From NCBI GenBank assembly GCA_028386065.3, contig JAKUCV010002506.1, positions 125,651 through 189,650 on the forward strand: 64,000 bases of DNA. Direction: 5' to 3'. Positions 31,265 to 56,991 of this stretch are shown piece by piece (positions within the stretch are counted from its first letter, which is position 1; every line of letters begins with the position of its first letter). The position numbers and the translations under genes were made by a program. This DNA comes from Turnera subulata. Lineage: Eukaryota; Streptophyta; Magnoliopsida; Malpighiales; Passifloraceae. The notes beneath the pieces were generated by a model. That model made no database searches. It was given only the letters and a program-made list of their open reading frames with translations, and was not told the origin of the DNA.

Positions 31265-32461
31265 ATGCCCAAGACGAGACGCGGTGCTTCATCGAGTCCA
31301 ATTCTTGAGATCAATCCGGAGATCGCGAGAACCTTATACAAGCAGTTGCGCGACAAGAAGAAGCAAAAGCAAAAACAAGTCGTTGAGCCTGTGGAATTTC
31401 TTCAAGACACTGAAATAGAAGAGGAGACAGATGTTGTAGCAGATAATTTCGAGACAGTCATCATGGCAGAAGAAGGAAACAAGACACTGCGTGACTACGC
31501 AACACCGAGTTTGGATATAGTGCAGTCGAGCATTGCAAGGCCAGCAATCAATGCCAACAATTTCGAACTGAAGACAGAACTCATTCACATGGTGCAACAG
31601 GAATAATTTGGAGGCTTGGATGATGAGGACCCGAATCAACATCTACAAACGTTCATGGAGATTTGTTATTTGATCAAGATCAATGGGGTGACTGATAATG
31701 CAATTCGACTTCGATTATTTCCGTTTTCTTTGCAAGGCAAGGCTAAGAAGTGGTTGAGATCAGGAGCAGCTGGAACATACAAGACGTGGGATGAGCTTTA
31801 AAATGCTTTTCTTGCAAAATATTATCCACTTGATAAACCAGCACATATCCAGAGCAAGATTACATCATTCATTCAATCCAACGGAGAAAGTTTTTGTGAA
31901 GCATGGGAACGTTATAAGGATCTTATTCAAGGATGCCCACAACATAGATTACCCGAATGGCTTGTAGTTCAATCTTTCTCTAATGGTTTAAATGAGCCAT
32001 TGCGTATGAGTTTGGATGCAGCATCAGGAGGGGAATTCATGGCGCAAGCACCAGATGTGGCGTATAAAAAATTGGAGAAGATGGCGAGTAACAGTTACCA
32101 AAGCTCTTCACGATCAAACAACAAGCGAGTAGCTGGAATTCTGGAAGTGGAGACAATGACAATGCTTAATTCAAAGCTTGACGCTTTGAGTCAGCAAGTA
32201 AAATCATGTGTTGCTGTTGTTATGCCGAGTTTAATATGTGATAAATGTACAGGTGCTGGACACAATTCAATGAATTGTCCAACCAGAGACGAGTTGACCA
32301 TTGAGCAGATGAATTACATTCATCAACGCCAACAACAACGAGGACCCTACACCAGCACATACAATCCGGAATGGAGGAATCATCCTAATTTCTCATGGAG
32401 GGAGTCCAACCCGAATCAGCAAGGCAATTTTCAAAGGAACGATTATGGGCAGAAGAGTTAG
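31265..32461 (+). pseudogene. Athila-type gag
   Basis: One reading frame runs through with in-frame TAA stops at 31604-31606 and 31799-31801. Signature segments are 'NFELKTELIHMVQQ', 'FGGLDDEDPNQHLQTFMEIC', 'AIRLRLFPFSLQGKAKKWL' and 'FLAKYYPLDKPA', all characteristic of Athila capsid. A CCHC zinc knuckle (C-x2-C-x4-H-x4-C) lies at about 32238-32280. Gag would package the element RNA in a cytoplasmic particle. The N-terminal 110 residues are highly charged. The sequence ends in an inverted LTR piece (32552), so protease and pol are missing. Confidence 0.88.
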
Positions 32462-32942: not shown

Positions 32943-34360
32943 CGACAACCAAACCATGGGATGACACGTAGATGTGAGGCACCTAGTCAAGTAGGAACCC
33001 AGTCAAGAAAGTCAAAGATCTAGTCTTTACAAACCGGAGAGAAGAGGGAGTACATCCATAAGCCAAAGACCCGGTCTTTGCACCTAAAAGAGAGTCAGTA
33101 AACCCGTGAGATGAGCAAATGCAAACAAGTAAGACAATGAGAGAATAGGAGGTACCCAGAGGTAAATGAAAAGCCAGGGACCCGATCCTTGCAACCCTGA
33201 GAGGAGCCCAGAACAAACCAACCACGAGACTAGAGAGAACCTTGAGTGAATCAGGAGAGAACCCAAAGCCGGGTCTCAGCACCCGCAAACTGTGAGATGA
33301 GAGAAAAGCCAGAGAGGAGTCCAAACATGAGGAATCCAGACCTAGGAGAACCCAGTTAGAAGAGAGATGAGAAGGAAACCAGACATGAACAACCCAAATG
33401 AGAGAAAACCGTGAGGGAGTCCAGATGCGAGGGAGTCCAGACAAAAAAATGAACCATGAATAAGACAAGGCAAACCAGAAATAAAGGTATCCAGATATGA
33501 GGGAAACCAGCCATGAGGGAAAAAATCGTTAGGGAGTCCAGACATGAGGGAAATCAGCCATGAGGGAGAAAACCATGAGGGAGTCAAGACATGAGGGAGA
33601 AAACAATAAGAGAGAGTCAAGACTCGAGGCATCCACATATGAGGAAAACCAGTAAGCCAAGGGCCCAACCCTTGCAAACCCAAGATGACCAGACCTTGAG
33701 ACATACAAGTCGAAAGCCGGGAACCCAGTTCTCGCAATGAGGAAACCAGACATAAGCCGTGTACCCAGTACCCGCAAAACTAAAGCCGAGGACCTGATCC
33801 TCGCAAAACCTTGGGATGAGATGATTCCCAAACAGAATCCAGCCAACAAGGATGAGATGATTCCTTGTCAACAACCCGATAGATGAGGTGATTCTATCAC
33901 CCCGGGATGAGATGATTCTCGAAAACCATAGCTTGGGATGAGATGATTCCCAAACACAATCCAGCCGACAAGGATGAGATGATTCCTTGTCAACAACCTG
34001 GTAGATGAGTTGATTCTATCACTCCGGGATGAGATGATTCCCGAAAACGACAGTTTGGGATGAGATGATTCCCAAACATAATCCAGCCGACAAAGATGAG
34101 AAGATTCTTTGTCAATAATCCGATAGATGAGATGATTCTATCGCCTTGGGATGAGATGATTCCCAAAAAACCTAGGATGAGATGATTCCTAGGATCCGAG
34201 GGCCAGTCCCTCAGAACTTCAGGATGAGATGATTCCTGGAGAGGAGCATGGGATGCTCCAAAACATGGCACACACACCACACATTATCATTCAAATTTTG
34301 TTATTCCTTTCTAACATTGTTTCATCCTTAGTCCCTAAGGACTCATCCGCGAGGCGCATC
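32943..34360 (+). repeat. Tat 3' region: covarying hairpin arrays
   Basis: This is the hypervariable region before a Tat 3' LTR. 33010-33805 carries spaced units of the form AAGCC, arm, CCnRR, arm', GCAAA with different but mutually complementary arms. Between them are 'gaggagtccagac' type repeats. 33811-34240 carries 14 units with loop TGAGATGAT and complementary arms. A final hairpin GGAGCAT/ATGCTCC (34243-34259) and the sequence up to 'gaggcgcatc' lead to the LTR at 34361. Tat elements are known for tandem repeats in their 3' UTR. The arm covariation is described in the findings. Minus frames here are repeat artefacts. Confidence 0.85.
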
Positions 34361-34723
34361 TGTGAACACCCAAATTTGACCCATGAACATTTTACTAAAA
34401 GTAGATTTCAAACATGCTCAAACTTGAGGTTAATGAGATGATTTGATTTTGAGTTAAGGCATGATAAGAATTTAATTTAGTAGAATTAATGTATTTTGAT
34501 AATCTAAACCTTTGTGTACTTAAACCTTAGGATTAATGAGATGATTTAGTCTTAGGATAAAACATATAATAAGGTTTATTTACATTAAAATACATTCCAT
34601 TTCGTTGCTTAGGCTCTTTTAGTTGTTTTTAACCCAATTATATTGAGATGATTTATTTTTGGGTTAGAAATGGGTTTAAAGATCCAAGTTAATGAATTCT
34701 CCAGAGTTTATCCAGCCCATTAA
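34361..34723 (+). mobile_element. Tat LTR, part before the copia insertion
   Basis: It starts TGTGAACACCCAAATTTGACC after the purine-rich 'gaggcgcatc' and matches 56184-56530. It stops at ATTAA (34719-34723), the left target duplication of the copia element, and resumes at 42428. Confidence 0.9.
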
Positions 34724-36245
34724 TGTTAGTGTAATATGCCCAAAAGCCAATCATTGGATGATTGTACATAGTCATGTAAATACATTAAGGTTATTCCAAT
34801 AAATATGTTTATGAGATAAATGCTTGCACATATTTATAACCCTAGAATATTTTATGTTCTTAAATGTCCCTAGTCGATTATTATTATGGATGGGTTGTAA
34901 TAATAAATTAAGACTAGCGTATGTTGAGAATTATATGAGATATGAATTCTACATACGGGTACAAGTTAGAGAACTTGTGGACTGGACCGACCTAACATAA
35001 GAACACTACATGGAACGTTATATGATTGTCATTAGTGGTTCTTATATGTATTGTCCTTAGACCTGAGATCATCAAGGTTCTCAACATGTGAGTCATATAG
35101 TTTGATATTACTCTTGGCTATTCGTAACTGAGTAGACCTTAGTGTAATCATTGGGTATATGATATAATGTGTAGTGGGTTTTGTATGATCAAGATGGAAT
35201 TCGTCCAACCCATACAACGGGTATATTATCAGTTGGGCCTCTTGATAGAGTTGAACTGTAAATGCATGGCCATGCTCGGTGTGATATGGTGATATCATTA
35301 GTATCCGCTTTACACAGTTAACTCGGGGATAAAGAAACTTAGATTAAACTTATACGAGATTGACGTATTCCATGTCTCGTGTATGATCTTGATAATGGGA
35401 CGAAAGGACGATGACATGTTCCGAGGCATAATGAATCAGTACTGATCTTGTCGTTTGGGTAGCAATGATGTGTTGCTAGACACCGCTCATTGTTTATAAT
35501 TGTAAAATGAGATTTTACAATTATTGCCAAACGTTACAAGTGCCTACAGGGTCACACACTTAGAACTGTTGATTCGAGCAGGTGGTTGAACCATGGTTGG
35601 ACCGTGGTTTTGACCAAGTAGGTGGACCATGGTTGAACCTTGGTTGGACCATGGTTGGACCGGGTCGTTTTAGGCTGATTTGGTTCACTAATTATCAGAA
35701 TTATTGAACCAGAATTAGTGCCATATGATGTGTATTCTTATATATGATGATATATATATTTAATGCTTAGTGGAGCATTAAGTCTTAGTGGAAACATAAT
35801 CATGAAGGATAAGACATGATTATGTTGGCCAATGACTTAATAAACTATGCATTTCAAGTGTGTATAAATAGAGTGAAGGTTTGATCAGATTTTCAGACCA
35901 AGCAAGGCTTTACACACTCTTCACACTTGAAAAAAACACATCAAACACTTTCTAGTCTCTAGCTCTCGAAAATTCTGCAGCTAGCACTGCGGTTCGGGAG
36001 TGCTCGGGTTAGTGATAGTGAGATGGTTACTAGCAGTCATCAACGGTTCGTGTGGATACCGTAAAGGAGCCGAATTTCTTGTCGGGTTCTTGCTGATTCT
36101 ACACTACAGTTGGGTGAAAGACCTCAACCAAGCAAGGTATGAAAATTGTTATTCGGTTTGGTTAGCTCCACTTGGATCCTCCATGAGTACCGGGTCTTTC
36201 CGCTGCATGTTTTGGTTGTCAAGTTTGCATGCTCGGTTACTTACA
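34724..36245 (+). repeat. Copia 5' LTR
   Basis: TGTTAGTGTAATATGCCC to CGGTTACTTACA. It contains clustered AACCATGGTT-like palindromes (35585-35665), a CCAAT box (35829-35833) and a TATA box (35863-35870). Positions about 35081-35865 are absent from the 3' LTR. Confidence 0.95.
35863..35870 (+). promoter_or_regulatory. LTR TATA box
   Basis: TATAAATA, with CCAAT about 30 bp upstream, precedes the R-U5-like part shared by both LTRs. It is a good candidate core promoter for the element. The 3' LTR lacks it. Confidence 0.7.
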
Positions 36246-36246
36246 G

Positions 36247-36259
36247 TGGTAGCGGAGCC
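36247..36259 (+). other. Copia primer-binding site
   Basis: TGGTAGCGGAGCC begins one base after the LTR. It resembles the initiator-tRNA-Met site TGGTATCAGAGC used by most plant copia elements, with substitutions. Confidence 0.8.
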
Positions 36260-36544
36260 TCTTGTGAAGTTCTAAACCGAATTCTTGTGCATATGTATGT
36301 TATGTACCCGTAAATATATGTGATATGTGATGAAGCATGATCATATATATAGAATTCAATTATGTATACGTGATATATATGTTGATGTTGGTTTATGTCA
36401 AAAGTGTTTTGGCAACAAGCACTTGATTGGTATGTGATATCAATCAAGGGGATCTTGGCAGTAAGTCGTAGGGGTTTGACTAAAGGAAAATCAATCGTCA
36501 GTTTTCGTTTGGAACGATTGTCGTTCTAGCACATCATGGCCAGA

Positions 36545-37167
36545 ACATCGATGTTCATCAGATGAACATCGATGTCGTCATGGGTTTAGCCTTGGCCGAG
36601 CCTACTGAACATCGATGTTGTGAGACAAAACATCGATGTTCTATGAAAGTTGGCCTTGGCAGATTCCCATGAACATCGATGTTCAAGATTGAACATCGAT
36701 GTCCAAGAGTTCTGCCGAATTGTTATGAGATTCCAGAATTCTTAAACATCGATGTTTAAGCTGAAACATCGATGTCCTTGAGTTCTAGAACCTCAAACAT
36801 CGATGTTTAAATGTTATACATCGATGTTTAAAACTACTGCCAAGATTTTGGACCTTCGGAACTTGCCAACATCGATGTTCAGGTCAAGACATCGATGTTC
36901 ATGAGTTCTAGAGGCCAATGGACCTTTGGTACTTTCCAACATCGATGTTCAAGAACCTAACATCGATGTTCTTGAGCTCTACCAAATAGTTTGGAGTTCC
37001 AGAGCCTCAGAACATCGATGTTCAAATCAAGACATCGATGTGCTTGAGTTCCAGAGGCCATTGGACATCGATGTTCAAGCTAGGACATCGATGTTCATGA
37101 GCAATGCCAAGTGATTGGCGAGAATCAGATTCTCACAATATCGATGTTCAATGTTAAACATCGATGT
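36545..37167 (+). repeat. Paired palindrome array in the copia leader
   Basis: Nineteen perfect copies of ACATCGATGT and one with a single mismatch (37138) form ten pairs. Starts are 36545/36566, 36609/36630, 36673/36693, 36746/36766, 36797/36818, 36869/36889, 36939/36960, 37012/37032, 37065/37085 and 37138/37158. Spacing within pairs is 20 or 21 bp. Pair-to-pair distance is 51-73 bp. Sequences between pairs are only loosely repeated ('gagttctagaggcca' type). The array lies between the PBS and gag, hence in the transcribed leader. Confidence 0.97.
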
Positions 37168-37738
37168 TCTTATGTATTTTTGGTTTCCAAATTTACAAAA
37201 CATCAATATATGATTTATCAAGAACATGCATATGATGTATAGGAATAATATGTTGATGTAAATATTAAGTTCCTCTTGTGTTACCTTCCATGATAAGCAC
37301 TCATCATTGCTTAGATCAATACTTGGTAGGTTTTGCCAAAGCCTGGTGCCAATATTTATCCTAGCAATGTGCGACGGGATAATTGTAATGTCCGAACTGC
37401 TTGTTATGAGTTGAACTTAACTAGGTCTTCTCAATAGGATTGAGGACTTAGAGGCAAGTAGTTGAGCTAAGTCTATGAGATAGACAAGAACAAGTGTTGT
37501 TCACTCAACTATCCAAGAGTTACATGAGATGTAATTGACAAGAGTTGTCTACCTAAATAACTATGATATATGTGATCAGCCAAAGCTGACTTATCTTGAA
37601 GTGAAATATGGATCTTGACCTACTTATAATTATCTTGATTTATGTAGTAGGAGCATCAATTAATAAAATTCCTTATTAAGTGATTTTATGTATACATGAC
37701 TCTTATTTGTGTGAGTTGATCGTTGTTGTAGAGTAATC

Positions 37739-38250
37739 ATGGCACAAAACACAAGTACACAATCACTGCGATCTGTCCTTGAGAAGGAAAAGCTGAGTGG
37801 GAATAACTTCGTAAAGTGGCATCGCAATTTGAGGATAGTCCTCAAACAAAAAAAGAAGTTGTATGTCCTTGAAGGGCCTGTTCCTAATGAACCGGCGCCT
37901 AATGCTCCTAGGGCAGAAAGAGATGCTTACAAGAAGCATGTTGATGATGCGTTGGATGTTGCATGCCTTATGCTTGTTAACATGGACTCTGAGCTTCAGA
38001 AGCAACATGAGAACTTGGGTGCATTCGATATGATCAAACATTGAAAATGCTTTTTGAAGAGCAAGCAAGGCATGAGAGGTATGAGACCTCTAAGGCATTG
38101 TTCCAATGCAAGATGGCTGAGTCATCACCAGTCAAGCCTCATGTGCTTAAGATGATTGGATACATTGAGAGCCTTGAGGGTCTGGTTTTTCCTTTGCAAA
38201 AGGAGTTGGCTGTTGATATAGTCCTGCAATTCGTTGTCGGATAGTTACAA
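37739..38250 (+). pseudogene. Copia gag, N-terminal part
   Basis: It begins MAQNTSTQSLRSVLEKEKLSG and continues 'NFVKWHRNLRIVL', the usual start of plant copia capsid (UBN2-like). The frame shifts near 38040 ('GAFDMIKH' then stop) and is picked up in another frame at 38041-38244, then shifts back to the original frame near 38230. Two compensating shifts break the capsid. The C-terminal part lies in the next feature. Confidence 0.88.
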
Positions 38251-40738
38251 CCAATTTGTCATGAATTTCAATATGAATCATCTTGACAAATCCTTGTCTG
38301 AGTTGCTTAACATGTTGGGAACAGTTGAGCAACAAATGAAGGCAAACAAATCCAACAACATTTTGATGGTTGGAAAAGGCAAAGGAAAGGGTAAAGCCAA
38401 GTTTTACAAGAAGAAGAAATGTGCCAAAAAGTTTGGTACTTGTGCATCTTCTTATTCCCATGTGCTGAAACCCAAAGGTGGTATTGCAAAGGAAGGACAA
38501 TGTTTCCATTGCAACAAACCTGGCCATTGGAAACGCAACTGCCCTGTTTACCTTGAAGAGGTGAAGAAACACAAGGGAAGTAAGACTTCCACTTCAGGTA
38601 TTTTTGTTATAGAAGCTAATATCTCTTTCTCTGCATCATGGGTATTAGATACCAGAAGTGGTTCTCACATTTGTGTAAATGTGCAGGAACTGAGAAAGAG
38701 TAGAAGATTAGGAAAGGGAGAGATAGACTTGCACGTTGGAAATGGAGCAAGAGTTGTTGCATTAGCCGTAGGGACTTACCATCTATCTTTACCGAGTGGT
38801 TTGGTTTTGGAACTTGATGATTGCTATTATGTACCTACTATAACCAGGAATTTGATTTTTGTCTCTTGTTTGGACAAGAAAGGTTTTTCATTTCTAATAA
38901 AGAACAATTGTTGTTCTATTTATTTTAATGATATTTATTATGGTGGTGCATATTTGAGCAATGGTTTGTATGTTCTAAACCTAGAAACACCAGTCTATAA
39001 CATTAATATGAAGAAGGTTAGATTAAACGATTCTAATGAAACCTATCTCTGGCATTGTCGATTGGGCCATATAAACGAGACTCGTATTTCTAAACTCCAT
39101 AAAGATGGACTTTTAAACTCATTTGATTTTGAATCATATGAGACATGTGAGTCATGTTTATTAGGCAAAATGACGAAGGCTCCTTTTGCTGGTAAAAGTG
39201 AAAGAGCTTCGAACTTGTTAGGTCTTATACATTCTGATGTATGTGGACCTATGTTAACACAAGCTAGAGGTGGTTTTCAGTACTTCATTACATTTTCTGA
39301 TGATTACAGTAGATATGGCTATGTGTATCTTATGAAACACAAGTTAGAATCCTTTGAAAAGTTCAAAGAATTTAAGAATGAAGTACAGAATCAACTCGGC
39401 AAGAGTATTAAAATGCTTCGATCTGATCTAGGAGGTGAATACTTAGACCGAGATTTTCTTGATCATCTAAAGCAATGTGGTATTGTATCCCAACTTACTC
39501 CATCAGGTACGCCTCAATGGAATGGTGTATCTGATAGAAGGAATAGAACTTTGTTAGATATGGTTCGTTCTATGATGAGACAAGCTGACCTTCCTTCTTC
39601 ATTTTGGGGACATGCATTATTAAGTGCTGCCTTTACACTTAACCGTGTTCCATCTAAATCGGTTGAAAAGACACCATATGAGATATGGACAGGGAGGCGT
39701 CCCAATTTGTCTTTTGTGAGGATCTGGGGTTGTGAGGCTTTCGTGAGACGAGAAGCATCAGATAAACTCGGCCCTAAATCCGTCAAGTGCCTCTTTGTTG
39801 GATATCCTAAGGAAACTAAAGGATATTATTTCTATAATCCCACAGAGCACAAAGTGTTTGTTGCTCGTACTGCTATTTTTCTAGAAAGAGAATTTATTTC
39901 TAGAAAAATCAGTGGGAGAAAAATAGAACTCGAAGAAGTTCGAGGTATAGAGGCTGAGATGGAACAAGGACAGGAACCACAAAATGTTGTGGGTGAAAAA
40001 CCTGTGCCTGTAACACATGGACTACATAGGTCTGATAGGATTCGACATGAGCCTGAGAGATATGGATTTCTTATGACTCATACTGGAGACGTGATGCTCA
40101 TTGAAGAGTATGAGCCCACTTCCTATCAGCAGGCTATTACGGGTCTAGACTCTAAGAAGTGGCTAGAAGCCATGGATTCGGAGATGGAATCCATGTATGA
40201 AAACAAGGTATGGATCTTGGTTGATCCACCTAAAGGGGTAAAACCTATTGGGTGCAAGTGGGTCTTTAAGAAAAAGACCAACATGGATGGTAATGTGATT
40301 ACCTTTAAAAGGCGATTGGTTGCGAAAGGTTTTAAGCAAGTTCATGGTATTGACTATGATGAAACTTTCTCACCAGTTGCCATGGTTAAATCCATCCGGA
40401 TTATATTGGCTATAGCAACATACCATGATTATGAGATATGGCAAATGGATGTCAAAACCGCTTTTCTTAATGGAAATCTTTTAGAGGATGTGTACATGAC
40501 ACAACCTGAAGGTTTTGTCACTCCAGAAAATGCTAACAAGGTGTGCAAGTTGCAACGATCCATTTATGGATTAAAGCAAGCTTTTAGGAGTTGGAATCTT
40601 CGTTTTGATGAAGTAATCAAACAGTTTGGTTTCATTGAAAATGATGATGAGCCATCTGTTTACAAGAAGGTTAGTGGGAGCACTATCGTTTTCTTGTTAT
40701 TCTCATTGGGAATGATATTCCAACACTACAGTCTGTAA
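38234..40738 (+). pseudogene. Copia gag-pol: zinc knuckle, protease, integrase, RT part 1
   Basis: An open frame of 834 residues. A CCHC knuckle lies at residues 90-103. The protease active site reads D139-T-R where D-T/S-G is expected. The integrase zinc site H274/H279/C305/C308 is intact and the catalytic positions are D335, D398 and residue 434, which is Asp in place of the usual Glu. RT begins near residue 655 with 'GCKWVFKKK', 'RLVAKGF', 'DYDETFSPVA' and the first catalytic Asp in 'WQMDVKTAFLNG'. The YVDD box should follow about 40685-40705. Instead a short deletion and frameshift remove it, and the frame ends at 40738. Confidence 0.93.
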
Positions 40739-41673
40739 AGAATTGGTTAGAAAAGAATTTTTCAATGAAGGACTTAGGAGAAGCTGCCTACGTGCTAGGT
40801 ATAAAGATCTATAGATAAAGATCCAAAAGGCTTCTTGGGCTAAGTCAAAATACATATATTGACAAGGTGCTAAAGAGGTTTAGCATGCAAGATTCCAAGA
40901 AAGGTTTCTTGCCCATGTCACATGGCGTATCTCTCTCAAAGAATCAATGTCCTAGTACATCCAAGGAGAGAGAGCGGATGAGTGAGGTCCCTTATGCATC
41001 TGCAGTAGGATCTATCATGTATGCCATACTATGTACTCGACCGGATGTCGCATATGTTTTGAGTGTCACAAGTAGATACCAATCTGATCGCTGTGAAAGT
41101 CACTGGACAGTGGTTAAGAATATCCTTAAGTACTTGATAAGGACTAAGGATGCATTCCTTGTATATGGAAGCGTTGATGAGCTTGTTGTAAAGGGTTACA
41201 CAGATGCTAGCTTCCAAACTGACAGGGATGACTTTAGATCGCAGTCAGGTTATGTGTTTTGTCTTGGAGGTGGTGCTGTATGCAGGAAGAGTTCAAAGCA
41301 AGAGACAGTTGCTGACTCTACAACTGAGGCTGAGTACATAGCCGCCTCAGATGCAGTGAAAGAGGCTATTTGGATTAAGAAGTTCGTAACTGAACTTGGG
41401 GTGGTTCCTAGTATTGACAGTCCGATTGAGCTCTATTGTGACAACAATGGGACAATCGCACAGGCTCAAGAACCTAGATACCACCAAAGATCCAAACATA
41501 TACTCCGACGCTATCATCTTATTAGAGAGATCATTAATAGAGGCAATGTCAGGCTGTGCAAAGTTCCTTCTGAGAACAATGTAGCAGATCCATTGACTAA
41601 GCCACTCACACAGCAGATGCATGATGGTCATACTGCATCCATTGGTATTAGATACATGGATGATTGGGTTTAG
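40695..41673 (+). pseudogene. Copia RT part 2 and RNase H
   Basis: After the deletion the frame continues with 'IGNDIPTLQSVKNWL', 'MKDLGEAAYVLGIKI', a TAA at about 40816 and then 'LGLSQNTYIDKVLKRF'. The long open part (40867-41673) is RNase H: 'GYTDASF' supplies the first Asp, 'STTEAEY' the Glu, 'YCDNNG' the second Asp, and 'RSKHI' and 'ENNVADPLTKPL' the last residues. RNase H itself looks intact. Confidence 0.92.
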
Positions 41674-41675
41674 TG

Positions 41676-41687
41676 CAAGTGGGAGAT
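41676..41687 (+). other. Copia polypurine tract
   Basis: The purine-rich 'aagtgggaga' just before the 3' LTR start primes plus-strand synthesis in this family. Confidence 0.85.
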
Positions 41688-42427
41688 TGTTAGTGTAATA
41701 TGCCCAAAAGCCAATCATTGGATGATTGTACATAGTCATGTAAATATATTAAGGTTATTCCAATAAATATATTTATGAGATAAACGCTTGCACAAATTTA
41801 CAACCCTAGAATATTTTATGTTCTTAAATGTCCCTAGTCGATTATTATTATGGATGGGTTGTAATAATAAATTAAGACTAGCGTATGTTGAGAATTGTAT
41901 GAGATATGAATTCTACATACGGGTACAAGTTAGAGAACTTGTGGACTGGACCGACCCAACATAAGAACACTACATGGAACGTTATATAATTGTCATTAGT
42001 GGTTCTTATATGTATTGTCCTTAGACCTGAGATCATCAAGGTTCCCAACATAGAGTGAAGGTTTGATCAGATTTTCAGACCAAGCAAGGCTTTACACACT
42101 CTTCACACTTGAAAAAAACACATCAAACACTTTCTAGTCTCTAGCTCTCAAAAATTCTGCAGCTAGCACTGCGGTTCGGGAGTGCTCGGGTTAGTGATCG
42201 TGAGACGGTTACTAGCAGTCATCAACGGTTCGTGTGGATACCGTAGAGGAGCCGGATTTCTTGTCGGGTTCTTGCTGATTCTACACTACAGTTGGGTGAA
42301 AGACCTCAACCAAGCAAGGTACGAAAATTGTTATTCGGTTTGGTTAGCTTCACTTGGATCCTCCATGAGTACCGGGTCTTTCAGCTGCATGTTTTGGTAG
42401 TCAAATTTGCATGCCCGGTTACTTACA
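41688..42427 (+). repeat. Copia 3' LTR with internal deletion
   Basis: Same ends as the 5' LTR, but 'cccaacat' is joined directly to 'agagtgaagg'. About 782 bp including the palindrome cluster, CCAAT and TATA boxes are missing. New copies take their U3 from the 3' LTR, so progeny of this copy would lack the promoter. The deletion must postdate insertion because both LTRs start identical. Confidence 0.93.
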
Positions 42428-42861
42428 ATTAACACATTTCTTGCAGACTAATTTTAGCTCTGATTTTCGTGGAAAATCAGAGTTAAATTGTCATTTAAGT
42501 AGATTTTTTTGTTTTTGGTATGATTTTGCTTAAAATAGGTATCAATGTGTAATCAATCATTCTTCGAATGATTTAAGGGAGTGGGGATCAAGTAATTGAG
42601 TGATTCTGGGTTAATTAGGGTTAATTACGCGGTAGGATCAAGTTAGAGTTGAATTAGGGGGATTGGAGGTCAAAAAAAGAAATGAACGAGTGACACGCAG
42701 GGTGACCAGCGGTCCTCTCGTGACGACCACCAGCACCTGGCGGTCATCCTCACATGACCACCGGCACTGGTGGTCATCCAAAGGATGACTGCCGGCAGCG
42801 GCAGTCATACGTACCCATAATCCCCGATTTTCTCTAATTTTGTTTCTAATTCGCTGAAGAT
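42428..42861 (+). mobile_element. Tat LTR, part after the copia insertion, joined to pol
   Basis: It resumes with the target duplication and matches 56530-56765 up to 'gtcaaaaaa'. From 42700 to 42830 it carries GC-rich hairpins such as ATGACCACC/GGTGGTCAT and ATGACTGCC/GGCAGTCAT. At about 42855 it runs straight into RT sequence, so the LTR end, PBS, leader, gag and protease are deleted. Confidence 0.8.
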
Positions 42862-45800
42862 ATGCCAAGTATTGATCCGGCCATTGCCCAACATAGAATC
42901 CCCTCTTTCCCAATGCCAAACCTGTGAAGTAGAAGGCCCGCCGTCTCCAACGTCAATGGGCTTTGAAGGTGAAAGAAGAAGTTGAGAAGCAAATTCGAGC
43001 CGGGTTTCTTGAAGTAATTGAGTATCCCGAATGGTTAGTCAACATAGTGCCAGTCCCGAAGAAGAATGGGAAGGTGAGGATGTGCGTAGACTACCGAGAT
43101 TTGAACAAAGCCTGCCCCAAGGATGAGTTTCCACTGCCACACATTGACCTTCTTGTGGATGCAATGGCCGGACATGCATTGTTATCCTTTATGGATGGAT
43201 TCTCAGGGTACAATCAAGTAAAAATGGCACCAGAAGATAAGCATAAAACATCCCTCCGAACAGAATAGGGGATATTTTGTTACAAGGTCATGCCTTTTGG
43301 GTTAATCAACACCGTGGCAACATATCAAAGGATGGCCACTACATTCTTACACGACATGATGCACAAAGAAGCCGAGGTTTATGTTGATGACATGATCGTG
43401 AAGTCAGAGACTCGGGAATCCTATGTGGTCATTCTAAGGAAGTTCTTTGAGAGAAGTCAGGAATTCGGCATGAGAATTAACCCTCAGAAGTGTGTCTTCG
43501 GTGTTCAAGCAGGAAGGCTCTTGGGTTTCATGGTAAGCGAACGAGGTATAGAAGTGGACCCTTCCAAGATCAAAGCCATTCAAGAAATGCTGACTTGAAG
43601 AGTGAGAAAGAAGACTGAAACTTTCTTGGGCGAATACAATATGTCAGCCGTTTTATTGCTCAGCTCTCTAGTATTTGTGCACCCATCCACTGCTTACTTA
43701 AGAAGGGGGGATGACAGGTGCCAGGACGCATTCGAGCAAATCAAGAAACATTTGTCTAACCCCCCAGTACTCCAACCTCCTAGGCCGGGAAAACCCTTGT
43801 TGTTATATTTGACTGTCACAGAAGAAGCTATGTGCGCAATGTTGGCCCAATATCTGCCAGACTCTTGCACTGAGGCTGCCATCTACTACTTAAGCAAGAA
43901 GTTCAATGGGTATGAGTTGAATTACAACATGGTGGAGAAGACGTGTGTCGCTTTAACATGGGCTTGCCAAAAGCTCCGGCATTATTTCATTTCCTTTGAA
44001 GTCTTGCTTATTTCCCGAATGGACCCTATCAAGTACTTAATGGAGAAGCCAATGCCAAGTAGCCGCATAAGCAGATGGGTGGCCATCCTGTCACAATTCA
44101 ACGTCCGGTTTATTTCACAAAAGGCCATCAAAGGAGGCGCCATAGCTGATTTCCTAGCTTCTCAGCCAGTGGGGAACGATGAGAGATTTGAACCACAATT
44201 CCCGGACAAAGAAATAATGAACTTAGATACACCAACCTGGGAGATGCATTTTGATGGGGCGGCCAATGCAAGTGGTTTTGGAACAGGAGTAATTCTCACG
44301 TCTCCTAATAGAGCGACTTTTCCAATTTCCTGCAAATTGGAATTTAAGGCAACCAATAACGTGGCTGAGTATGAAGCATGCACCACTAGCTTGGAGATAG
44401 CACTCAACGTGGGGATCAAACAGATGAGAATATTAGGGGATTTGGCTCTGGTAATTTTCCAAGTGAAGGGGGAATGGAAGATCAAAGCAGAAAAATTGGC
44501 AGCTTACCACGATTTCTTGCAGACCCTGGCCTCCAAGTTCGAAGTAATTCACTTCCAGTATGTACCAAGGAAAGACAATCTGTTTGCTAATGCATTAGCC
44601 ATACTCTCTTCAATGATAGGAAAGCCAAACAATGCCATCATCTAGCCATTGACAGTCCGAAGGAGAGGAAGGCCATCCTTCTGCCAGAAAGAGGAGGCGA
44701 GTGAATGTTGGTTTCAAAGCTACCTGAATGAGTTCAATCCCGACAAAACTTCCATCATGGCCCTCACTACTATGAAGGTAAATCAACCGTTACATGTCCA
44801 GATTGAACATGGCGGTGACTCAAACCATTAGTATGAAGACATATTGAAATACCTTAGGGAAGGGACATTCCCTGAGGGGTCGATGGCCGAGGAAAAGAAG
44901 ACTCTAAGAAGATTAGCTGGAGGGTATGTCATATGCACCGGGAAAATTTACAAAAGACACGCTACGGGGGTCCACTTGTTATGCGTAGATACAAAGGAGG
45001 CAGAACGTATCATGAAGAAAATACACGAAGGAGATGAAGGCCCACGCGTAGGAGTAGAGATGCTGGCTCGAAAAATATTGCTTTTGGGATATTTTTGGTC
45101 AACAATGGAGGCTGATTGTGCAAAATTTGTGAAGTGTTGTCACACATGCCTAGTCCACGGGAGGTTGTAGCAAAAGCCTCCACTACCATTAACCCCCATG
45201 TCCTCACCCTGGCCATTCTCAGCATGGGGCATTGATGTTATTGGAAAAATAACCCCAAAGGCTACAAATGGACACGAGCACATACTGGTGGCCATTGATT
45301 ACTTTACCAAATGGGTGGAAGCCGAGTCATATGCCGTGCTCACATCTAAAATGGTGGCTGAATTTATCCGCAACAACATTTTTATCATTATGGCATCCCA
45401 CTTGAGTTAATATCGGAAAATGGTGCACATTTCAAAGCTGATGTCGAGAGGCTATGTCGAAAATTTGGAATTAAACATCATAAGTCTTCACCCTATCGAG
45501 CCCAAGCCCATGGAGGGGTGGAAGCCGCCAACAAGAATACGAAGGCCATCCTTGGAAAGATGATATCTACACATACAGAATGGGCAGAAAAATTGCCATT
45601 AGCTCTATGGGGGTACCAGACCTCTATTAGATCCTCCACGAGTGCAACTCCATACTCCTCAGTGTATGACATGGAAGCCGTGTTGCCTGTAAAGCTCGAA
45701 GTGCAGTCATTGAGGGTGGCCCGGGAAAGCAAGCTTCCTGAAACAGAATGGGTACAAGAAAGGCTTGATCAATTGACATTGTTGGATGAAAAGCGATTGT

Positions 45801-48053: not shown

Positions 48054-50417
48054 TGAAACGCCCCGACCCGTATTTACCGTACACAGTAACACGTGCCGAA
48101 ACTGTAACAACCTGACCAAATAAAGCCCAGCATACAGTGTATACAATCGAAACTCGGGCTCAACAGCCCAAAATAAAAGCATCAAAAACAACATAACCGT
48201 CCCAATGGCCCAACAATAGTAAAAACAATGCACAGCGGAAGACTTAATAACTCACAAAACACTATATGCGACACTGATGCAAACTATGGATCCGAGCCCT
48301 GTCCAAGGGATAACGCCGCAGCCTGTCTGGAATGCACCAAACCTGTACCACAAATAATCCATCCTACGGGAAGAAAGCCCACAGGTGAGGGGCGAGTCCG
48401 AAGTGCTCACCGACGAAGAATAGACTATCAATATGCAACACTATAATTACTCAAGGTCGAAAACAGGCAAAAAAAAACCGCCAAGTACATACCAAACCAA
48501 AAACTCGACCCAAAACTGGTCCAAGACCAAAAGACTAAATCAAAAATCCAATTTTCCAATTTTATCTTTCCGGGCCCCGTCACGGATAAGCTAGGGGTCA
48601 GACCTGGTTATCAACACATTTCGGGTGCCAGACCAAATCCAAGAGAACCCAGGGATCGACATCCCAAAAATAAGAACCCAGGGATAGACATCCCAAAAAT
48701 AATCACGGGATAGACATCCCAAGCATAGACTTCTTATCACAAGTAACCCAGGTCATGGCCACCACAAAACTGTCTTAAACCACTGAGTCGTACCACTACT
48801 TACCACGTGACAATTATATTATCATCATCCAAAACCACGTCACTGGGATCAACATCCCAAACCAAAATACCGGGATAGACATCCCTATCAAAATCCAAGG
48901 ATCGACATCCTTATCACATTTGATTATTTATTCCATTATACTTTAAACCAAAAAGACACCAGGACTAATATCCAAAAACTCAACACTGGGATAAACATCC
49001 AAAAAACCAATCAGGACACTGGGATAAACATCCCGAACCAAAACACAGCAAATGCAACAACCACCAGAGCAATAATCATCAAACACAATAACCGAGTAAT
49101 ACAGGCACATATGGAAGGAAATCCATCCTCACCTTAGCCGATTACTCAACTCCAGAAACAATGACCGGTCCCAATCCGGCTCCTCGGGAAACCGCCCGAT
49201 ATCATAACCTACACAACAGAACAATATACTCTCGTAAATGCACATAATCGGTATGCTATGATGCCAATACTGCGAATTAAACCCATCCCGGTTACATATC
49301 TTTTAATATCATCTTTTACGGAAAAATATTATACCGTACGTATATCCGAATATAATTTCGGTACCATACCCTAACTAAAACTCTTTTCAAAATATTTTTC
49401 ATAGTTTAATTATACCTTTTTTCCAATTATAATTACCATAATAAATACTTAACAAATTTTATATATATCAGAAAATACTTCCATACAATAAATTATGTCA
49501 TATTCTTTATTTCTCTAGCAACATAAATTAATATAAATATATATATATATATATATCCAGAAAATTATTATTTATCAAATATATATTAAGGTAAGCATAT
49601 ACTATATGTATTCTTTTTGCAGAAATTATAATCATATAAACATATTTTCTGAAAATAAATATAGGTATGCATATTTATTTTTCTAAAGATATAATACATC
49701 CCCAAACAATTATATTATCAATATAATAATCTATTTCCAGGAATATTACTTAGGTATACCATATATATTTTTTTTTCAGAAAATATATATCTTTTTATTT
49801 TTATTTAATTTATACAGTTTATAACCATATTTATTTCCCAAAATCATATTTTACAGAATTATTTTCCCAAAATATAATCCTTATTATTATTTTCCTTCCA
49901 TTTAATTTTTTTTCCAGATTTTATTATTATTTTTTTCTTCCCTTCTCTCGTTTTTTTTTTGCGTTCATTTTTTTTATATCTTTTTTTTTCTCTTTTTTTC
50001 TTTTCCTCTCTTCTCTTTTTTTTTCCCCCTCTCCTTTCTTCCTCTTTTCTTCTCTTCCTCCCCTTCTCATTTCCTGCTTCTGATTATAAAGACGAAGAAA
50101 AACTGTTCAGCCTGTGATTCTTCAATAATGCAGCTTGTCTGCATTATGGAGCGAGTCCGGTCCGGACCAGAAAATAACTGATACCCCCTTAGTTATTTTC
50201 CGGTGTGATTTTATCGAAGATTCCGGGACCCGAAAAATACCAACTTAGGCCCGAAAAATCCATGGAAAAATCTCGAGCGCGGGAAAACCCTCGGTTTCGA
50301 AAAACGATGCCCGATTTACCTTGAATTAATTACCCAAGATTAATTCATTTGGTAAATCACTGTATAATGACTTTAACAGTCCCGGTAAAAATCCAAAGTT
50401 TTACCCGGGCTGTTACA
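48054..50417 (-). repeat. Tekay-like 3' LTR
   Basis: 2,364 bp, aligned along its whole length to 52771-55164. It contains a series of GGGATnnnnATCCC inverted repeats (48650-49035), an AT-rich centre and a pyrimidine-rich tract (49900-50080). Only scattered substitutions and small indels separate the two LTRs. Confidence 0.93.
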
Positions 50418-52770: not shown

Positions 52771-55164
52771 TGAAACGCCCCGACCCATATTTACCGTTCT
52801 TAGTAAACACGTGCCGGAACTGTAACAACCTGACTAAATAAAGCCCAGCATACAGTGTATACAACAGAAACTCGGGCTCAACAGCCCAAAATAAAAAACA
52901 TAAAAAACAACATAACCGGCCCAATAGCCCAACAATAGTAAAAATAATGCACAGCGGAAGACTTAATAACTCACAAAACACTGTATGCGACACTGATGCA
53001 AACTATGGATCTGAGCCCTGTCCAAGGGATAACACCGCAGCCTGTCTGGAATGCACCAAACCTGTACCACAAATAATCCATCCTATGGGATGAAAGCCCG
53101 CAGGTGAGGGGTGAGTCCGAAGTGCTCACCGACGAAGGATAGACTATCAATATGCAACACTATAATTACTCAAGGTCGAAAACAGGCAAAAAAAACCGCC
53201 AAGTACATACCAAACCAAAAACTCGACCCAAAACTAGTCCAAGACCAAAAGACTAAATCAAAAATCCAATTTTCCAATTTTATCTTTCCGGGCCCCGTCA
53301 CGGATAAGCTAGGGGTCAGACCTGGTTATCAACGCATTTCGGGTGCCAGACCAAATCCAAGAGAACCCAGGGATCGACATCCCAAAAATAAGAACCTAGG
53401 GATAGACATCCCAAAAATAATCACGGGATAGACATCCCAAGCATAGACTTCTTATCACAAGTAAACCAGGTCATGGCCACCACAAAACTGTCTTAAACCA
53501 CCGAGTCGTACCGCTACTTACCACGTGACAATTATATTATCATCATCCAAAACCAAGTCACAGGGATCAACATCCCTAACCAAAATACCGGGATAGACAT
53601 CCCTATCCAAATCCAAGGATCGAAATCCTTATCACATTTGATTATTTATTCCATTATACTTTAAACAAAAAAGACACCAGGATTAATATCCAAAAACTAA
53701 ACAAGGGGATAAACATCCAAAAAACAAATCAAGACACTGGATAAACATCCCGAACCAAAACACAACAAATGCAACAACCAACAAAGCAATAATCATCAAA
53801 CACAGTAACCGAGAAATACAGGCACATATCGAAGGAAATCCATCCTCACCTTAGCCGATTACTCAACTCCAGAAACAATGACCGGTCCCAAGCTGGCTCC
53901 TCGGGAAACTGCCCGATATCATAACCTACACAACAGAACAATATACTCACATAAATGCACATAATCGGTATGCTATGATGCCAATACTGCTAATTAAACC
54001 CATCCCGGTTACATATCTTTTATTATCGTCTTTTACCGAAAATATTATACCGTACGTATATCCGAATATAATTTCGGTACCAAACCCTAATTAAAACTCT
54101 TTTCAAAATATTTTTCATAGTTTAATTATACCTTTTTTCCAAATTATAATTACCATAATAAATATTTAACAAATTTTATATATATCAGAAAATACTTCCA
54201 TACAATAAATTATGTCATATTCTTTATTTCTCTAGCAACATAAATTAATAAAAATATATATATATATACATAAAATTATTATTTATCAAATATATATTAA
54301 GGTAAGCATATACTATATGTATTCTTTTTCCAGAAATTATAATCATATAAACATATTTTCTGAAAATAAATATAGGTATGCATGTTTATTTTTCTAGAGA
54401 TATAATACATCCCAAAACAATTATATTATCAATATAATAATCTATTTCCAGAAATATTACTTAGGTACACCATATATATTTTTTTCAGAAAATATATATC
54501 TTTTTATTTTTAATTAATTTATACCGTTTATAACCATATTTATTTCCCAAAATTATATTTTCCAGAATTATTTTCCCAAAATATAATCCTTATTATTATT
54601 TTCCTTCCATTTAATTTTTTTTCCAGATTTTATTATTATTTTTTTCTTCCCTTCTCTCTTTTTTTTTCTGTGTTTGTTTTATTTATTTCTTTTTTTTTCT
54701 CTCTTTTTTTTTCTTTTCCTCTTCTTTTTTTTTTCCTCTCTTCTCTTTTTTTTTTTTTCCTCTTCTTTCTTCCTCTTTTCTTCTCTTCCTCTTTTCTTCT
54801 CTTCCTCCCCTTCTCCTTTCCTGCTTCTGATTATAAAGACGAAGAAAAACTGTTCAGCCTGTGATTCTTCAATAATGCAGCTTGTCTGCATTATGGAGCG
54901 AGTCCGGTCCGGACCAGAAAATAACTGATACCCCCTTAGTTATTTTCCGGTGTGATTTTTCCGAAGATTCCGGGACCCGAAAAATACCAACTTAGGCCCG
55001 AAAAATCCACGGAAAAATCTCGAGCGCGGGAAAACCCTCGGTTTCGAAAAACGACGCCCGATTTACCTTGAATTAATTATCCAAGATTAATTCATTCGGT
55101 AAATCACTGTATAATGACTTTAACAGTCCCGGTAAAAATCCAAATTTTTACCCGGGCTGTTGCA
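52771..55164 (-). repeat. Tekay-like 5' LTR
   Basis: 2,394 bp with the same order of features as 48054-50417, including the GGGATnnnnATCCC series (53365-53750) and pyrimidine-rich tract (54640-54820). The last bases read TGTTGCA where the other LTR has TGTTACA. Confidence 0.93.
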
Positions 55165-56183
55165 ATGCGCGCATATTAGGGGCACATCGCCAGCCTTTGA
55201 TTACCAGGGGCATGAAATGCCCGCTTGGCACCTGATGTCGGGTTGAGACGCCCGGTAGACAAACCAAAGCCGTGTACCCGATGCACGCTAAACCCAAAGC
55301 CGTGTACCCGGTACACGCAAAACCCAAGCCGTGTACCCGGTACACGCAAGACCGAAAGTCGTGAACCCGATAGACGCAAACCCAAAGCCGTGTACCCGGT
55401 ACACGCAAAATCAAAGTTGTGTACCCGGTGCATGCAAAATTGAGAGATGAGAAAGAACAAACCTGAGGAAACGCAAAACCAAAGCCGTATACCCAGTAGA
55501 TGCAAAGCCAAAGCCGTGTACCCGGTACACACAAATCCAAAGCAGTGCACCCGGTACAGGCAAACCCAAAGCCGTGTACCCGGTGCACGCAAAACCAAAC
55601 CCCGGGATGAGATGATTTCCAAACCAAATATTGAATAAACAATTGACGAGATAAGTTGATTCTCGATGATCGAGCCACGAAGTGGAACCTTTTTTATGAG
55701 AGATGTAGGGGCATGTGATGCCCAAGGTATAGACAACACTGTCGCGGATCGGCATCTTAGAGGATGACTGGGGCATGAGATGCCCAGGGACTAGATAACC
55801 AGGCCGTGAAATGGTATTTCTGACGGAAGTCGATGGCGAAGCTATTGGGATGAGATGAATCCCGAAAACCATGACTTGGGATGAGATGATTCCCAAATCG
55901 AAACCTAGTTAACAAGGATAAGATGATTCCTTGTCAACAACCCGATAGATGAGATGTTTTTATCACCTCAAAATGAGATGATTCCCGAAAACCTAGGATG
56001 AGATGATTCCCAGAAACCGAGGGTCAGTCCTACAAAACTTCAGGATGAGATGATTCCTGAAGAGGAGCATGGGATGCTCCAAAACCTGGCACACACAACG
56101 CACATCTATCATTCAATTTTGGTTGTTCCTATTCTTACGTTGATTTGTCCTTAGTTCCTAAGGACTCATCAATGAGGGGCATC
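55165..56183 (+). repeat. Tat 3' region, second hairpin array set
   Basis: This is the continuation of the Tat element after the Tekay-like insertion. 55260-55600 has nine or ten units of about 30-40 bp built on CGTGTACCCGGTACACG flanked by AAGCC and GCAAA. 55640-56060 has several TGAGATGAT-loop units, and GGGCATnnnATGCCC hairpins occur at 55207, 55709 and 55772. GGAGCAT/ATGCTCC (56063-56080) and 'gaggggcatc' lead to the LTR. The layout copies 32943-34360. Confidence 0.85.
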
Positions 56184-56991
56184 TGTGAACACCCAAATTT
56201 GACCCATGAATTTTCCACAAAAGTTAGATTTTAAATGTGTTTGAACCTAGGGTTAATGAGATGATTTGGTCCTAGGAATAAAGCATGTCAAGAATTTATC
56301 TTAGTGAAAGTAACACATTTTAGTGATTTGAGCCGTTGTATATTGGTGTACTAGGATTAATGAGAAGATTTAATCTTAGGATAAAATATACAAAAAGGTT
56401 TATTTATACTGAAATGTGTTTTTGGGGCCTTTTATCTATTTTTAATTCAATTTTAATGAGATGATTTATCTTTGGGTTAAAGATGGATTTATGGGCCCAA
56501 GTTAATTCTCCAGAGTTTGATTAGCCCATTAACACATTTCTTGTAGACCAATCTTAGCTCTGATTTTCGTGAAAAATCAGAGCTAAATCCTCATTTATGT
56601 GGAAATGTTGTTTTTGGTATGATTTAGTATAAAATGGGTGTTAAATGTGTAATAAATCAATCTTGGGATGATTTAGGGGAGTGATGATCAAGTAATTGAG
56701 TGATTCTGGGTTAATTACGTGGTAGGATCAAATCAGAGCTGAAGTAGGGGGATTGGGAGTCAAAAAAGGACGGATGGGTGCCTAACGCCTTCCCATCTAT
56801 GACGAACCCCCGATCCCATGACTTTGGTTCGCCATGACCATGTAGCCTAAAGGAGTCACTTGACGGTTTTTCCCAAGTTTTGTTCTTAAATAAAATTTGG
56901 GTGGCGACTCCAATGTCTTGAGATTGACCCGAGGAAGAAGGTCAAAGGATTAGGTGAATAGGCCCAAGTGATTTTGGGTCGGGTATTCACA
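56184..56991 (+). mobile_element. Tat 3' LTR (808 bp)
   Basis: TGTGAACACCCAAATTTGACC to GGGTCGGGTATTCACA, preceded by a purine tract. It is shorter than the 1.85-kb LTRs at 4.2-7.9 kb because the GC-rich hairpin block between 'gtcaaaaaagga' and 'cggatgggtgcc' is missing. About 75 bp before its end it contains 'gtggcgactcca', a copy of the primer-binding-site core. Confidence 0.9.

Follow-up and report, generated by a model that had tools for sequence, protein, structure and literature searches.

The window analyzed here, a stretch of 64,000 nucleotides of Turnera subulata DNA (assembly GCA_028386065.3, contig JAKUCV010002506.1, positions 125,651 to 189,650 of the forward strand), contains retrotransposon sequences of the Tat type, in one of which a tandem array of 14 short hairpins is followed, approximately 120 bases past its end, by the start of a 3' long terminal repeat (LTR; Table 1). 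An earlier note, made from the letters of the window alone, had described this array as lying in a Tat 3' region, and it overlooked the strongest part of the present results, namely that the LTR next to the array has three long hairpins, each in single copy (A, B and C), with the same loop, TGAGATGAT. The Tat label is supported by domains and layout. A domain search of positions 42933-45407 returned RVT_1 (in two frames), RT_RNaseH, RVT_3 and the integrase zinc domain Integrase_H2C2, with rve reaching only E 0.043, under its cut-off. A second, archaeal-type RNase H (RVT_3) alongside reverse transcriptase and integrase domains is expected of the Tat lineage, as are tandem arrays placed after the coding region and before the 3' LTR, and both are present. 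This internal region with pol domains comes after the interrupted LTR, and upstream of the 14-unit array only gag was found. Antisense frames are present as well; the two that were searched, which do not include those over the array, gave only sub-threshold matches to DUF7745 and PMD (the Retand marker being TRP28).

Table 1. Features of the window; positions are those of the whole stretch, and those of hairpins A, B and C were converted by hand from alignment columns.
Feature	Position	Strand	Remark
Retrotrans_gag open frame	31802..32458	+	same strand as hairpins
Second hairpin family, AGCC-(17-base hairpin)-GCAA units	33172..33804	+	paired varying arms
Array of 14 short hairpins	33811..34241	+	four arm types, 122-base period; loops start at 33817, 33853, 33884, 33908, 33939, 33975, 34006, 34030, 34061, 34097, 34128, 34152, 34178, 34225
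3' LTR, first part	34361..34723	+	starts TGTGAACACC; remainder lies beyond a Copia-type insertion
Long LTR hairpin A	34392..34483	+	apical loop TGAGATGAT, 34434-34442
Long LTR hairpin B	34490..34594	+	apical loop TGAGATGAT, 34537-34545
LTR hairpin C	34623..34673	+	apical loop TGAGATGAT, 34644-34652
Same 3' LTR, remainder	42428..42706 (end approximate)	+	separated by Copia-type insertion 34724-42427
Array of like units, second Tat element	55600..56062	+	
LTR of second Tat element	56183..56770	+	loops at 56257, 56361 (TGAGAAGAT) and 56457

Every one of the 14 array units, with its complementary and differing arms, was found in place, together with each arm pair quoted in the earlier note. The shared core is exact in 11 units and carries a single change in the other three (TGAGGTGAT at 33884, TGAGTTGAT at 34006 and TGAGAAGAT at 34097), which agrees with the small variants described before. 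The nine-base loop is flanked, unit by unit, by 6, 7, 6, 5, 6, 8, 7, 5, 8, 8, 7, 6, 7 and 8 contiguous standard pairs, while at least five contiguous pairs occur at 97 of 9,800 upstream positions. Pairing at stem positions 3-7 amounts to 0.90, compared with 0.515 ± 0.069 when the 14 units exchange their 3' arms at random (none of 20,000 re-dealings as high). The units are not 14 independent cases because four arm types recur at the 122-base period. RNA folding in context gives nine of them a base-pair probability above 0.7 from the second pair outward.

All genome searches were confined to the window's own assembly (518.7 Mb, 7,125 contigs), and the family sizes obtained are lower bounds because only the best 40 candidates were scored in whole-assembly DNA searches. 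The sequence GGATGAGATGATTCC occurs 5,020 times in this assembly, and its backward-read control does not occur at all. From the first listed of these places we took, in contig order, 18 further array pieces, each with at least one GGA/TCC unit, and allowed at most one loop change in their 156 units. At least five contiguous pairs were present in 98 of the 156 units, and positions 3-7 were paired at 0.788, compared with 0.493 ± 0.018 with arms swapped (the maximum of 2,000 shuffles being 0.550). Both the re-dealt arms of the window and these further arrays bear out the claim that pairing is kept while the arms change. The change from G-C to A-T, said to be matched on the other arm in the GACAAGGA/GACAAAGA unit, is likewise seen at the level of the family, with 66 GC, 35 AT, 1 GT and 3 other combinations (n=105 units). 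The orientation of the core is constant (432 exact cores in sense and 2 in antisense at 30 loci), and loop changes range from 2 to 30 per position among 408 paired hairpins, the most frequent being T to A at position 6. Linkers between the hairpins are rich in A and C (40% A and 36% C, together 76%) and the composition of the stems is balanced. The copies examined have between 14 and 22 hairpins per array.

The LTR hairpins were studied in samples hand-picked for spread from 97 LTR stretches, 23 of them for pair statistics and 14 for RNAalifold, and the LTRs span four subfamilies grouped by eye. RNAalifold gave the 14 sense sequences a score of -51.2, compared with -18.7 ± 3.9 for 60 column-shuffled alignments (z -8.3), and a z of only -1.5 on the antisense strand. 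Our model of 56 pairs consists of 50 of the 75 RNAalifold pairs and six added by hand; the 25 omitted pairs belong to long-range helices (columns 15-34) and to a small hairpin (columns 218-244). In the 23 LTRs, 96.2% of 1,284 cells were paired (shuffles 93.4 ± 0.3; 0 of 500 as high), 66 cells had changed on both sides where 25.9 were expected (0 of 500), 18 of the 56 pairs had such changes where 10.9 were expected (1 of 500), and the covariation score was 0.315, compared with 0.251 in shuffles (0 of 500). Pairing falls to 27-55% when the partners are shifted by 1-3 columns. Compensatory changes beyond both shuffle and slide controls on one strand were found for the LTR hairpins only, four of the five measures exceeding the shuffles. 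A scan of 9,086 placements of a nine-pair hairpin (threshold at least 93% paired and at least three variable pairs) passed eight on the sense strand: four surround the loop of hairpin A, B or C, and four, near columns 324-332, belong to an alternative local helix that the 56-pair model does not include. None of the 9,086 passed on the antisense strand.

The kind of pair retained is informative as well. LTR stems contain 268 G-U cells and 24 A-C cells, and among pair types common to at least three LTR sequences 28 were G-U and one A-C, so that these stems stay paired by way of G-U, a pair found in the sense RNA alone. Pairwise identity is 0.951 in the loops, 0.799 in the stems and 0.792 in the rest of the LTR; the stems thus drift at the rate of their surroundings and the loop does not, and only the start of the LTR matches the loops in conservation. 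Stem A differs between L001 and L070 at nine places, all transitions, and loses none of its 11 pairs (P 0.005 given background substitutions); it was kept beyond chance in all four comparisons with one common reference (P 0.005, 0.022, 0.031 and 0.010, with background substitution types). Taken alone, hairpin A is unusually stable on the sense strand only (z -3.1, compared with -0.1 in antisense). Folded in context, hairpins A and B likewise exceed a pair probability of 0.7 in the second and all further pairs outward; hairpin C reaches approximately 0.9 in its second to fourth pairs, with unpaired bases in between. The hairpins are also present, together with the array, in a 5.7 kb copy (L061), where the loops of B and C are exact in both LTRs and that of A is exact in the 3' LTR and altered in the 5' LTR. 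The longest sense frame of this copy has at most 172 amino acids and no Pfam match, no other search for pol domains having been made on it.

Since pairs are kept, G-U greatly exceeds A-C, the sense-strand fold is conserved and the loops are more constant than the stems, the LTR hairpins appear to be RNA structures under selection that display a constant loop. The proposal of selection on RNA structure in the earlier note is therefore well supported for these three hairpins, and for the array it does not separate from template switching because G-U is not favored over A-C there. The short array units have covarying arms and no strand preference: their stems contain 39 G-U and 46 A-C in 624 cells, a hand count of positions 3-5 gave 75 A-C and 71 G-U, and the folds of the first array (sense z -2.98, antisense -2.83) and of the second (-2.56 and -3.64) are alike on both strands. 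This near parity would suit an origin by template switching, in which reverse transcriptase copies one arm from the other and the array hairpins have no function. We consider this improbable; it leaves unexplained the G-U-rich LTR stems with the same loop, their sense-strand conserved fold and the constancy of the loop across all arm contexts, but within the array by itself such copying may still be at work.

Further observations weigh against a selected RNA structure. In the array, in-context folding is poor for the units at 33884 and 33908 (at most 0.02), 33817 (approximately 0.3) and 34006 (approximately 0.28), and in the second element five array units and the loop at 56457 reach approximately 0.1 or less beside the loop. 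Inside a given type of array unit the stem positions are mostly near independence, which is as expected if most differences postdate insertion; exceptions include position 3 of type U2 (0.971 paired, 0.759 expected) and position 6 of type U4 (0.724 and 0.606). In the LTR, stem B taken alone was kept beyond chance in one of four comparisons (0.031) and stem C in none of four, and an earlier, conservative null that moved only the place of each base change was mostly not significant. Further pair types in the 56-pair test did not exceed the shuffles (38 of 500). Kinship among sequences can beat column shuffles without any structure, and the LTR sample corresponds to approximately five effective sequences. 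At that effective size mutual information of single column pairs in 88 LTRs was uninformative, and the 45 pairs it listed included none from the stems. When the LTR stretch is folded as a single sequence, its antisense strand is also more stable than shuffles, to a lesser degree than the sense strand (first element, sense z -4.5 and antisense -2.6; second element, -6.8 and -4.3).

With these points considered, we are highly confident that the hairpins are an RNA structure with a selected loop. Because the loop stays constant and the stems drift at the background rate, the loop would be the recognized part: one loop is constant over the 17 hairpins of the first copy, and the stems are free in sequence and retain pairing, as for a site of loop recognition. 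That a protein reads the loop is likely. The many copies of the loop may give avidity, forming a multivalent RNA-recognition domain, and copies without a long open frame would retain the hairpins because these act in cis. Retroelement Gag selects RNA, and for this reason, together with the continuation of the array into the LTR and the hairpin set kept by L061 without a long frame, our first-ranked guess, ahead of nuclear export, is that Gag binds the loops and thereby selects the element's RNA for packaging; that the reader is Gag and the step packaging we hold tentatively, as somewhat short of an even chance. For the explanation as a whole, in which the 3' region and LTR of a Tat-type element carry hairpins with a constant TGAGATGAT loop on varying paired stems and this RNA is bound through the loops, probably by its own Gag in packaging, our confidence is evenly balanced. 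Retroviral packaging (psi) hairpins and the hairpin of the MS2 coat protein also present a short loop, once or several times, on stems in which the sequence has little importance, but here the hairpins lie in the 3' region and LTR, the loop sequence is unrelated, the binder is only a candidate and the array has 14 to 22 copies. A bolder and rather doubtful version is that the 3' end of the RNA is a natural display of the MS2 kind, with approximately 14 to 22 short hairpins on A/C-rich linkers followed by three long LTR hairpins, all with UGAGAUGAU, and that a single protein recognizes this display as a multivalent signal for packaging or transport. If so, the tandem arrays of Tat 3' regions would be amplified binding sites and not debris, and loop and reader would change together between families. 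A set of covarying hairpins with a fixed loop would supply a candidate cis-acting RNA signal for plant Ty3/gypsy elements and would explain why the arrays exist, a question that could be tested with a nine-base loop probe.

The same alifold, covariation and G-U evidence supports equally an element for nuclear export or RNA transport, to which a host export adaptor would likely bind and through which unspliced element RNA would leave the nucleus. We know of no RNA transport element that is an array of ten or more constant-loop hairpins, and nothing in the data favors export over packaging, so we regard this as unlikely. Retroviral export elements are named in literature abstracts, and an export element in the LINE-1 3' UTR (untranslated region) that binds NXF1 is among the references of PMC12786077. 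The strand-neutral statistics of the array would also suit a DNA site, with TGAGATGAT recognized by a host factor and the flanking palindromes forming DNA features such as cruciforms. This is very unlikely given the single orientation of all but two of the 434 exact cores and the pairs of the LTR stems that hold in sense RNA only (268 G-U, 24 A-C). Just as little is to be said for small-RNA precursors or silencing targets: the LTR stems are long and imperfect, as such precursors could be, but it is the loops that are conserved here while the stems diverge like background, the opposite of a microRNA precursor, whose conserved part is an arm. No arm was more conserved than the loop, so a microRNA precursor was rejected, and no Rfam family reached its gathering score in positions 33000-34723 (four matches were sub-threshold). 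A minimal reading frame in the loop (ATG AGA TGA) was also ruled out, as hairpin C in two subfamilies has mostly T before the loop and hence no ATG, and the TGAGAAGAT variant also loses the stop. The loop is not self-complementary, which rules out a kissing dimer. By inspection, U-U, G-A and A-G pairs can be placed in the loop, as in a K-loop (kink-turn), but the K-loop has a 7-nucleotide loop beside its G-A pairs (PMC7991803), while in the present nine-base loop three bases would remain, and membership was rejected.

Hypervariable 3' UTRs of Tat elements were reportedly first described by Macas and others in 2009. Tat/Ogre/Retand elements are known to have tandem repeats in their 3' regions, which in the accessible parts of two sources are family-specific and variable in sequence (PMC7004042; PMC11963269). 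The arrays described here resemble them in lying between the coding region and the 3' LTR of a Tat-type element, and differ in the constant loop on changing paired stems, which extends into the LTR as single-copy hairpins. In its accessible text PMC11963269 does not contain 'hairpin', 'stem-loop' or 'secondary structure', and 'palindrom' only in a cited title; that of PMC7004042 does not contain 'hairpin', 'palindrom' or 'secondary structure'. According to the latter, plant genomes commonly contain Tat/Ogre arrays, from which satellite DNA is seeded, and neither source states a purpose for the arrays in these parts. Stem-loops in the R regions of retroviral LTRs have been described (PMC3601003), in models that, as far as accessible, omit plant Metaviridae LTRs and include no set with a shared loop across the LTR and 3' region. 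Among the literature matches listed, judged by title and start of the abstract and without most subscription papers or supplementary files, none dealt with hairpins of constant loop and covarying stems in plant LTR elements; one match, PMC5595298, contains the letters TGAGATGAT along with the word retrotransposon. To that extent, such hairpins in the Tat 3' region and LTR appear to be new, and the tandem repeats there are known.

The second hairpin family, directly upstream of the array, occurs also at window positions 55298-55590 and in L001-L060. Exactly 17 bases separate AGCC and GCAA in 157 of 194 matches; most have paired six-base arms, which take many sequences, and a loop that approximates CC[CT][AG][AG]. 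A hand count of positions 2-6 in 67 distinct units gave 39 G-U and 20 A-C. Directly past the LTR, positions 42700-42810 have their own repeats able to fold as hairpins, e.g. TGACCACC-GGCACT-GGTGGTCA and TGACTGCC-GGCAGC-GGCAGTCA. Another array, of short hairpins like GGGAT(A/C)GACATCCC with few arm variants, lies at 48640-49030 and 53360-53740 inside direct repeats of approximately 2.4 kb, which are probably the LTRs of another element. Between 31802 and 56770 the window shows an LTR succeeded by an internal region with pol and then by an LTR from a different subfamily (approximately 76% alike); these are old or recombinant copies. In L061 (1-6401) the sequences that follow the two LTRs are similar (94.9%), as if LTR and internal regions succeeded one another in tandem. 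The Copia-type element inserted in the Tat LTR has its own first LTR copy broken at approximately 35088-35867, and it includes 19 copies of the palindrome ACATCGATGT at 36545-37168.
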